Below, in pieces: positions 17,032-19,602 of a stretch of DNA of 21,874 nucleotides (positions within the stretch are counted from its first letter, which is position 1; each line of letters begins with the position of its first letter). The stretch comes from Caldisericota bacterium. GTDB lineage: Bacteria; Caldisericota; JANLFM01. The DNA lies in NCBI GenBank assembly GCA_024655865.1, contig JANLFM010000025.1, forward strand, positions 1-21,874. Direction: 5' to 3'. The notes beneath the pieces were generated by a model. The model did no database searches and was not told the origin of the DNA. It saw only the letters and a program-made list of their open reading frames with translations. Made by a program: the position numbers and the translations under genes.

Positions 17032-17922
17032 TTACCTCCTCTCCGCTGCTCTTAATCTCGCGCTTCGTGACCGGGGATTCTGAGCAATTTCACCCTCTGA
17101 TGGCCTGACAACTTTCTTGGTGAGCACAGAAAAGGTTCCGTTCTGCTCAAAGGTGCGAAAGGCGGTCTTAATCAGCCGATCTTCTAGAGAGTGATAAGCG
17201 ATGAACACTGCCCTTCCTTTTGGCTTGAGTAAATCTGGAAGGGAACTCAAAAGGATGCTCAGGTTTTCCAGCTCCCTGTTTACAGCGATTCTTAAAGCCT
17301 GAAAAACAAGGGTGGCCGGGTGCATGGTTCTCCGGAAAGGCAGCCTCAGTTCCCTGAGAAAGTTGACTAGATCCTGGGTCGTGTGAAAGCTTTTCTTTGT
17401 CCTGAAGCGCACTATTTCTCTGGCGATCCTTAGGGCAAGAGGAACTTCTCCCTTTTTCAGGACTGCCAGTATTTCGTCCTCCCTCCAAGAGTTCAGAATG
17501 TCTGCTGCCGTGAAACCTGCTTTAGGGTTCATGCGCATATCCAGGGGGCCCTCCTTTTGAAAGCTAAAACCCCTTTCCTCTTTTTCCAGCTGCCAGGAAG
17601 AAACTCCCAGATCGCAAAGTAAACCATCAACTGCGTTCACATTGAGCGTTTTTAGGATTTCCCCTGCCCTGATAAAGTTAGCTTCTTTAAGGATGACGCT
17701 CCCCTCGAATTGGGAAAGCCTTTCCCGGGAGTAAGAAACGGCTTCGGGATCCATATCTAAACCAATGACCAGGGCTTTACCGGCTGTGGCTTCTAAAATC
17801 GCCAGGGAGTGGCCCCCTCCCCCCAGGGTGCAATCGAGATAGGTTTTACCAGGTTCTGGAGAGAGGAAGTGCAGACACTCAGAGACCATTACAGGGTTAT
17901 GGAATAATTGCTTTGAGATCAT
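17032..17922 (-). CDS. rsmH: 16S rRNA (cytosine-1402-N4)-methyltransferase RsmH
   Basis: 296 residues from ATG 17922. SAM-dependent methylation of N4 of C1402 in 16S rRNA. Seen: HNPVMVSECL at the N-terminus, SAM loop LDCTLGGGGHS (29-39), GLDMDPEAV, GLLCDLGVSSWQL, MRMNP, RIAREIV, FQALRIAVNRELENL and AYHSLEDRLIK, all RsmH signatures. The frame runs 24 codons further upstream, but ATG 17922 overlaps the mraZ stop (ATGA) and gives the usual N-terminus. Second gene of the cluster, as in most dcw operons. Confidence 0.97.
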   Translation of the reverse strand: MISKQLFHNPVMVSECLHFLSPEPGKTYLDCTLGGGGHSLAILEATAGKALVIGLDMDPEAVSYSRERLSQFEGSVILKEANFIRAGEILKTLNVNAVDGLLCDLGVSSWQLEKEERGFSFQKEGPLDMRMNPKAGFTAADILNSWREDEILAVLKKGEVPLALRIAREIVRFRTKKSFHTTQDLVNFLRELRLPFRRTMHPATLVFQALRIAVNRELENLSILLSSLPDLLKPKGRAVFIAYHSLEDRLIKTAFRTFEQNGTFSVLTKKVVRPSEGEIAQNPRSRSARLRAAERR

Positions 17923-18350
17923 AGCTTTATTTCCCCCAGTTCCTCGGCGAGTTTCTCGTAAGAAGGCTTGCTCTGAGCCAGGAACTCCAGCCACTTCTCC
18001 TTGGCCCAGATCTCGAGCTTATCAATTACCCCCACCAGCACTACTTCTTTTCTGATCTGGGCGTGTTCCCTGTGAGTCTGTGGGATTAAGAGCCTTCCTT
18101 GCTTGTCCAGCTCGCAAAGTTCGGCACCATAAAGCATCAACCTTTGGAGCTTGCGCACGTTCTCTTTAAGGTAGGAAAGCTCGCTTAGCTCGGAGGTAAC
18201 TATCTGAAAGCGATCCGTTGGATAAGCTATCAGGCAACCCTCAAAACCGAGGGTCAAAACGAAAGATTTCCCAAGGAACTCCCTGAACTTGGGAGGAATA
18301 ATCACCCTGCCTTTTTCATCTACCGCATGCTCTGATTGTCCGGTCAGCAC
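17919..18350 (-). CDS. mraZ: MraZ, transcriptional regulator of the dcw cluster
   Basis: 143 residues from GTG 18350. It has two SpoVT/AbrB-like halves: HAVDEKGRVIIPPKFRE (about 8-24) and CELDKQGRLLIPQTHRE (about 80-96), the duplicated Dx(K/Q)GRxxxPxxxR motif of MraZ. MraZ forms a ring that binds repeats in front of its own gene and represses or tunes the operon. The open frame extends to a GTG at 18386, but that codon lies inside the fourth operator box. GTG 18350 has AAGGGAG six bases upstream, gives the family N-terminus (LTGQSEHAVD) and the same length as the Bacillus protein. Its stop overlaps rsmH. Confidence 0.93.
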   Translation of the reverse strand: MLTGQSEHAVDEKGRVIIPPKFREFLGKSFVLTLGFEGCLIAYPTDRFQIVTSELSELSYLKENVRKLQRLMLYGAELCELDKQGRLLIPQTHREHAQIRKEVVLVGVIDKLEIWAKEKWLEFLAQSKPSYEKLAEELGEIKL

Positions 18351-18356
18351 TGGCCT

Positions 18357-18363
18357 CTCCCTT
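18357..18363 (-). promoter_or_regulatory. Ribosome binding site deciding the mraZ start
   Basis: The minus strand reads AAGGGAG, six bases before GTG 18350. The alternative GTG at 18386 has no Shine-Dalgarno and falls in the operator. Confidence 0.7.
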
Positions 18364-18381
18364 TCCGTTGCTACCTTGCGA

Positions 18382-18416
18382 TCCACATTTTACCACTAAT
18401 AACCACTTTTTACCAC
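18382..18416 (-). promoter_or_regulatory. Putative MraZ operator: four boxes, 10-base period
   Basis: On the minus strand three GTGGT boxes (18412-18416, 18402-18406, 18392-18396) and one GTGGA (18382-18386) are each separated by exactly five AT-rich bases (AAAAA, TATTA, AAAAT). MraZ proteins of E. coli and Mollicutes are known to bind short G-rich direct repeats, containing GTG/TGGG, at about 10-base spacing upstream of mraZ. A TAAAAT that could serve as a -10 lies between the last two boxes (18387-18392); no convincing -35 was found. Confidence 0.82.
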
Positions 18417-18466
18417 AAATTAGGAAAAAAATTTTTTAAAAATAAGGAAAAATGGGAGATGAGAGT

Positions 18467-18507
18467 AAAAAAAAATTCAGGTCGGTCTGAATAGACCGAC
18501 CTGAATT
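18467..18507 (-). terminator. Intrinsic terminator after rplL
   Basis: A perfect 15-base inverted repeat (arms 18474-18488 and 18493-18507, core AGGTCGGTCT) with a four-base loop, followed on the minus strand by a run of nine T (18467-18475, the first two within the stem). It begins about 25 bases after the rplL stop. The remaining 50 bases before the MraZ boxes are very AT-rich. Confidence 0.95.
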
Positions 18508-18531
18508 GAAATACAGGGTTTTTCTTTTGGT

Positions 18532-18918
18532 TTACTTGATCTCTACTTTGGCACCAACTGCCTCGAGAGCTTCCTTCACTTTCTGGGCTTCTTCTTTAGA
18601 GACCTTCTCCTTTACTGGCTTAGGCACCGAATCTACCAGGTCCTTGGCCTCCTTCAAGCCTAAACCAGAAAGTTCCCGGACGACCTTCAGAACCTGGATT
18701 TTCTGGGAACCTACATCGGTGAGAATAACGTCAAACTCGGTTTGCTCCTCCTGGACTTGTGCAGGCTGAGCAGCAGCAGGTGCAGCAGCGGCCACTGGAG
18801 CAACCGCGGTTACCCCAAACTCCTCCTGAAGCCTCTTTGCTAGATCGGCGATTTCAAGAATTGTTTTCTTCTTTATCGCCTCAATAATCTCGTCATTGGA
18901 CAAAACATTCTCTGCCAT
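18532..18918 (-). CDS. rplL: 50S ribosomal protein L7/L12
   Basis: 128 residues. N-terminal dimerisation domain (about 1-35, [21 protein letters not shown]), an Ala/Pro-rich hinge (about 40-56), and a C-terminal factor-binding domain (about 60-128, with [21 protein letters not shown] and [15 protein letters not shown]). It forms the multi-copy ribosomal stalk on L10 and recruits translation GTPases. ATG preceded by GGAGGT; 24 bases after rplJ. The transcript ends in a strong terminator just downstream, so rpoB does not follow. Confidence 0.98.
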
Positions 18919-18942
18919 TTTTGAACCTCCTTCGGTCTTAAT

Positions 18943-19449
18943 CTACTTTTCAGCAATTGCTTGCAGAGTAAATACCAGATTGGCCATTGGCCCCTGCAAA
19001 GCCCAGAGCAGTCCCTGAACGGGTAATTGTAAGCTACCGAGAATCTGAGCTAAGAGCTCGTTCTTGGAAGGCAGCTTGGCAAGCTCTCTCATCTGAGCTG
19101 CATCGTAAAATCTTCCTTCCAGGAACCCTCCTTTGGGCTTGATGGCTTCCTTGTCTTTGGCAAACTCCATCACAACCTTGAGTGGGACAACTGGATCCTC
19201 GGTGGTTAACATTACACCTGTGGGACCCTTTAAAACTTCAACAGAGCCCAGGCCGGCCTCGTCTAAGGCAATCTTCAAGAGAGTATTCTTCGCCACCTTG
19301 AAGACGGCCTTCGATTCCTTAAGCTTTCTCCTCAAAGCGCTGATGTCCGCAACGTTTAATCCCTGATAGTCCAGGAAATAAACGGCAGTCGAGCTCTTCA
19401 GAGCAAGCTTGATATCCTCTAATTGTTCAACTTTCTTTGGATTAGGCAA
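18943..19449 (-). CDS. rplJ: 50S ribosomal protein L10
   Basis: 168 residues. The N-terminal rRNA-binding domain has STAVYFLDYQGLNVADISALR, FKVAKNTLLKIAL and LKGPTGVMLT; the C-terminal helix (about 135-168) is the docking site for L7/L12 dimers. The start is TTG at 19449 with GGGGTG about five bases upstream. The preceding 150 bases carry an L10-leader structure and an attenuator-like hairpin, so autogenous control by the L10-L12 complex is likely. Confidence 0.97.
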   Translation of the reverse strand: MPNPKKVEQLEDIKLALKSSTAVYFLDYQGLNVADISALRRKLKESKAVFKVAKNTLLKIALDEAGLGSVEVLKGPTGVMLTTEDPVVPLKVVMEFAKDKEAIKPKGGFLEGRFYDAAQMRELAKLPSKNELLAQILGSLQLPVQGLLWALQGPMANLVFTLQAIAEK

Positions 19450-19471
19450 TTTATCACCCCTTTATTTAACG

Positions 19472-19497
19472 AAAAAGGACCCCTACCAAAGGAGTCC
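19472..19497 (-). terminator. Attenuator-like hairpin before rplJ
   Basis: On the minus strand GGACTCCT (19490-19497) pairs with AGGGGTCC (19477-19484), eight pairs with one G-T, around a five-base loop, followed by five T (19472-19476). It sits between the L10 leader and the rplJ start, where leader-controlled early termination would act. Confidence 0.65.
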
Positions 19498-19512
19498 AGA
19501 TTATCTGAACTT

Positions 19513-19558
19513 AGCCTCGGTAGGATTTAAGCCTTCTGGCAACCTACTTTCTTCGGCT
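19513..19558 (-). promoter_or_regulatory. L10 leader: L10(L12)4 binding site in the rplJL mRNA
   Basis: On the minus strand AGCC (19555-19558) pairs with GGCT (19513-19516), and GTAGG (19543-19547) with CCTAC (19520-19524). They are separated by an asymmetric internal loop GAAGAAA / CGA, and an apical GCC-AGAA-GGC hairpin lies above. This matches the kink-turn-like L10 leader found upstream of rplJ in many bacteria. The region 19450-19602 holds no gene. Confidence 0.8.
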
Positions 19559-19602
19559 TCAAAATTTTCAGTTTTTAGTGGTTATCCGCTCCCATCCCTC
19601 CT

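Follow-up and report, generated by a model that had tools for sequence, protein, structure and literature searches.

The closest described relatives of the element reported here are the MraZ sites of Escherichia coli, Burkholderia cenocepacia, and Mollicutes. The E. coli MraZ operator lies at Pmra/mraZ1p (Eraso et al. 2014, as cited in PMC7761207), and the DNA upstream of mraZ in strain K-12, which we read directly, runs GTGGGAAATT GTGGGGCAAA GTGGGAATAA, followed by a degenerate GGGG unit. In B. cenocepacia, the MraZ site of PmraBc consists of four 7-base repeats with 3-base spacers, and the fragment is gel-shifted by MraZ (PMC7761207). The Mollicutes site is (AAAGTGKN3)3, where K is G or T (Fisunov 2016, as quoted in PMC5282649).

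A comparable array occupies positions 18382–18416 of the window, which is the whole 21,874-nucleotide stretch of DNA that was analyzed. Read 5' to 3' on the minus strand, the region is ...CCTAATTT GTGGTAAAAA GTGGTTATTA GTGGTAAAAT GTGGATCGCA AGGTAGCAACGGAAAGGGAGAGGCCA GTG, the last codon being at 18350. The boxes are GTGGT, GTGGT, GTGGT, and GTGGA; they start at 18416, 18406, 18396, and 18386, and each is followed by five bases, giving a period of exactly 10. Rereading the minus strand thus confirmed both the span and the exact period that the first-pass annotation had reported upstream of mraZ. The putative operator has the following parts, each recognized by its sequence and by its retention in relatives:

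18413–18416, minus strand: MraZ box 1, GTGG, in unit GTGGTAAAAA (18416–18407)
18403–18406, minus strand: MraZ box 2, GTGG, in unit GTGGTTATTA (18406–18397)
18393–18396, minus strand: MraZ box 3, GTGG, in unit GTGGTAAAAT (18396–18387)
18383–18386, minus strand: MraZ box 4, GTGG of GTGGA, in unit GTGGATCGCA

The pattern lies far outside what chance would give and is unique in the genome. In 20,000 dinucleotide shuffles of the 184-base spacer between rplL and mraZ, three GTGG at 10-base steps never arose, and only 8 of 3,000 shuffles of the same spacer contained some 4-mer in four equally spaced copies, whatever the spacing. Across the 1.82-Mb assembly, the exact four-box pattern is found at a single place, upstream of mraZ, and allowing up to two mismatches adds just one other, inexact, match. 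Apart from this locus, the genome contains one exact three-box match, and the reversed-pattern control gives no fewer. A wider MraZ regulon built on further genomic arrays was dropped from consideration because the three-box matches do not exceed this control.

In sequence and spacing, the boxes resemble those already described more closely than had been supposed. The first-pass annotation held that the GTGGT/A box is unlike those of E. coli and Mollicutes, a view that the comparisons do not bear out. In E. coli K-12, too, the operator presents GTGG at three 10-base steps and immediately precedes mraZ, which heads the dcw cluster; it differs in the base after GTGG, which is G there and T or A here. 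PmraBc shares the four repeats and the 10-base period (7 + 3). The Mollicutes site has a GTG core and a period of about 10 bases, and box 2 (AAAGTGGTTA) fits its consensus, as quoted in PMC5282649, exactly; however, Mollicutes have three boxes rather than four, and the A-tract that precedes GTG there is loose here, where the base directly before GTGG is most often T. Firmicutes arrays (L031–L107, mostly Lachnospiraceae) also consist of GTGG[T/A] boxes at 10-base steps, in two to six copies. Among 231 boxes of other, mostly Firmicutes, genomes, GTGG[T/A] prevails: TGG is nearly invariant, a core partly given by the search that gathered the boxes, and the following base, which the search did not specify, is T in 58% and A in 26%.

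The array stands at the start of a transcription unit. Upstream of mraZ is rplL (L7/L12), then a strong intrinsic terminator. Downstream on the minus strand are mraZ, rsmH, a small protein at the usual place of ftsL, a penicillin-binding transpeptidase, a Mur ligase, and mraY-, ftsW-, murG-, murB-, ftsQ-, and ftsZ-like frames, with dcw gene identities beyond the family-model tests read from sequences and gene order. Given the terminator after rplL and the dcw genes that follow, mraZ heads the dcw cluster with a promoter region of its own. The product of mraZ scores 143.9 bits against the TIGR00242 equivalog model (cut-off 98.35) and 128.9 against PF02381 (cut-off 23), which places it in the family. 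Its DxxxR motifs, D11–R15 and D82–R86, are invariant in an alignment of 14 sequences and both are intact in the window protein. The flanking features are:

18474–18507, minus strand: intrinsic terminator after rplL, a 15-pair stem plus T run, splitting the ribosomal operon from mraZ
18355–18361, minus strand: ribosome-binding site GGGAGAG, the same heptamer in all five family members
17919–18350, minus strand: mraZ coding sequence from GTG 18350, 143 amino acids with two DxxxR (AbrB-like) motifs, recognized by TIGR00242, PF02381, and alignment

The gene order on the ribosomal side is also of note. Positions 18348–19449 (minus strand) lead from rplJ-rplL through the terminator into the dcw cluster and not into rpoB, the usual follower of rplJ-rplL. 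An rplL-like end also precedes mraZ in relatives L003 and L005. Upstream of rplJ, a ribosomal protein L10 leader (Rfam RF00557, above the gathering score) lies at 19462–19574 (minus strand) and contains a terminator-like hairpin at 19497–19477.

Conservation of the array follows the distribution of mraZ. Of 61 genomes searched, 25 contain MraZ; 21 of these belong to the same phylum, and in all 21 an array of three or four boxes at 10-base steps lies upstream of mraZ. These 21 genomes span three families, and the identity of their MraZ to the window protein falls to about 30–37%; the shared arrangement may nonetheless reflect one single inheritance. Examples are GTGGTGGAAA GTGGGGACAA GTGGTATATT GTGGGGGAAA in the same family, GTGGTAAAAT GTGGTAATTT GTGGTAAAAT in family f5, and GTGGTAAAAA GTGGGAAATT GTGGTATACT in family f4. 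The spacers differ between units and between species and the GTGG core hardly changes, box 1 of L004 being ATGG. Other families of the phylum are without MraZ as judged with the Pfam model and mostly retain rsmH, and in the DNA read at the rsmH loci of seven mraZ-less relatives there is no array. Among the relatives read, the array thus accompanies mraZ and is missing where the gene is missing, and both its conservation and its link to mraZ are direct observations.

The relatives that lack MraZ include G005–G010, G012, G014, G015, G017, G020–G023, G025, G026, G028, and G029, among others. In nearly all genomes tested from MraZ-less families rsmH is retained, and the absence of MraZ accompanies the absence of the box array. 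Array-like matches among mraZ-less relatives occur in G023, G041, G042, and G034. Those of G023 and G034 were set aside: one consists of weak ATGG boxes at an unrelated frame and the other sits at the start of another unrelated frame. A match in G053 is located at the end of a contig, which would leave mraZ off the assembled sequence.

We conclude that the array is very likely an MraZ autoregulatory operator, with a probability of roughly nine in ten. This reading draws on the uniqueness of the array in the genome, its conservation in 21 of 21 loci, and its absence at the seven mraZ-less rsmH loci. The locus has direct repeats with a GTG(G) core at 10-base steps (four exact GTGG), and these immediately precede mraZ, which leads a minus-strand run that continues with rsmH and dcw-type genes. 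The proposal of the first-pass annotation that MraZ binds here gains support from the presence of the array before mraZ in every mraZ-bearing relative of the phylum.

Where the promoter lies relative to the boxes is informative. A consensus scan found no sigma-70-type −35/−10 pair, so the promoter prediction rests on an extended −10, TGG-TAAAAT (18395–18387, minus strand), formed from box 3 and its spacer, such that the TGG of box 3 doubles as the source of the TG. The hexamer is:

18387–18392, minus strand: predicted −10 hexamer TAAAAT, the spacer between boxes 3 and 4, recognized by hexamer matches across the phylum and by the position profile

In all 21 phylum loci, the hexamer directly after box 3 (TAAAAT, TATATT, TAGAAT, TATACT, or TATAAT) matches TATAAT at five or six of six positions, and TGG always precedes it. 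When all hexamers are scored, the top mean −10-like offset is +24 from box 1 in each of the three families; in L004, where box 1 is ATGG, the same place reads +14. Among eight representative loci, the box-3 spacer has 41 of 48 matches to TATAAT, whereas the other spacers average 2.7 of 6 (permutation p about 1e-4). The position of this −10-like hexamer is likewise observed directly. In addition, the hexamer ends exactly 7 bases before an in-frame mraZ ATG in f5 loci L006, L007, L008, L010, and L011, and exactly 6 bases before one in f4 loci L013–L023. A distance of 6 or 7 bases from −10 to ATG is the spacing expected for a leaderless transcript. This spacing lends independent support to the post-box-3 hexamer as a real −10 and predicts that mraZ transcripts in families f4 and f5 are leaderless.

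It is therefore fairly probable, judging from these sequence patterns, that operator and mraZ promoter are fused phylum-wide, with a leaderless transcript in two families and repression by direct occlusion of the −10. In such an arrangement, a box would supply the TG of the extended −10, and the −10 hexamer would fill the spacer to the next box position. Alternatively, the array could be an MraZ operator with its promoter upstream of box 1 as in E. coli, in which case MraZ would block the start site and early transcribed region, and the TANNNT after box 3 would be mere operator sequence. The sites of B. cenocepacia and E. coli are presented in PMC7761207 as downstream of the −10, 49 of 73 loci from other genomes have a −10-like hexamer that begins 11–20 bases ahead of box 1, and L003 (TATGAT) and L005 (GATAAT) have such a hexamer directly before box 1. 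However, a −10-like hexamer with five of six matches at 11–20 bases before box 1 is found in just 1 of 21 phylum loci, against 21 of 21 for the hexamer after box 3, and an upstream promoter would leave the fixed distance of 6–7 bases to the ATG in f4 and f5 unexplained. We regard an upstream promoter as unlikely.

A second alternative is that the boxes are mraZ coding sequence, translated from GTG 18386. As the first-pass annotation observed, box 4 overlaps the longest mraZ frame. Its GTG is the first codon of that frame and lies near the predicted transcription start, GTG 18350 is in the same frame, and the frame upstream of 18350 is open in the window and in a same-genus relative. In L003, L004, and L005, however, a stop is in frame upstream of the mraZ start, and box 4 lies 31 or 35 bases from the start codon and is therefore out of frame. 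The GGGAGAG ribosome-binding site is found 3–6 bases before the start codon in five of five family members, and the MraZ family model (TIGR00242) begins at the residue encoded by GTG 18350. That GTG 18386 would fall between the predicted −10 and the predicted transcription start is a further reason against its use as a start codon. The choice of GTG 18350 over 18386 in the first-pass annotation is thus upheld, and translation of the array is very improbable. Least credible is that the repeats arose by chance or slippage and have no function, since slippage can make short tandem units, but here the spacers vary between units and species while GTGG stays, and the array is conserved across three families and recurs before mraZ in other phyla.

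With the operator and promoter fused as favored above, the array probably covers the promoter and blocks RNA polymerase. The extended −10 inside the array would direct mRNA start near box 4, at about 18382–18378, and this mRNA would be translated from GTG 18350, downstream of the GGGAGAG site. As MraZ accumulates, adjacent subunits of one ring, perhaps four as the first-pass annotation suggested, would engage the boxes along one face of the helix. Bound MraZ would cover roughly −35 to the start site and keep RNA polymerase from the −10, which would repress mraZ, rsmH, and the genes downstream of them, amounting to negative autoregulation of the dcw cluster. Binding by MraZ, the sign of regulation, and how many ring subunits take part are extrapolated from MraZ of other bacteria, and the transcription start is deduced from the extended −10; repression as the sign is taken from E. 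coli and could differ. A literature search found no paper on the recent MraZ structures 9qlr, 9qlg, and 9sx6.

With these observations, the range of the MraZ operator comes to include a phylum that has been little studied. They also have a practical consequence for annotation, as a gene caller that placed the start at 18386 would render operator DNA as protein. If operator and promoter are indeed fused, the −10 is occluded directly instead of transcription being blocked at the start site, and the two elements can only co-evolve.

E. coli, Firmicutes, and this lineage share the GTGG core and the 10-base period and seem to differ in the register of the promoter. The E. coli site is downstream of the −10, and PmraBc is downstream of the −10 and overlaps the transcription start (PMC7761207), whereas here the array appears to contain the −10, predicted directly after box 3. 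Of 73 Firmicutes loci, 49 have a −10-like hexamer ahead of the array, which agrees with the arrangement published for E. coli and B. cenocepacia (PMC7761207), and just 7 have one directly after a box. From this comparison, the operator seems able to shift along the promoter in steps of a full helical turn, a flexibility relevant to the mechanism of MraZ repression. The kind of switch is already known; what is new here is its apparently lineage-specific promoter register.
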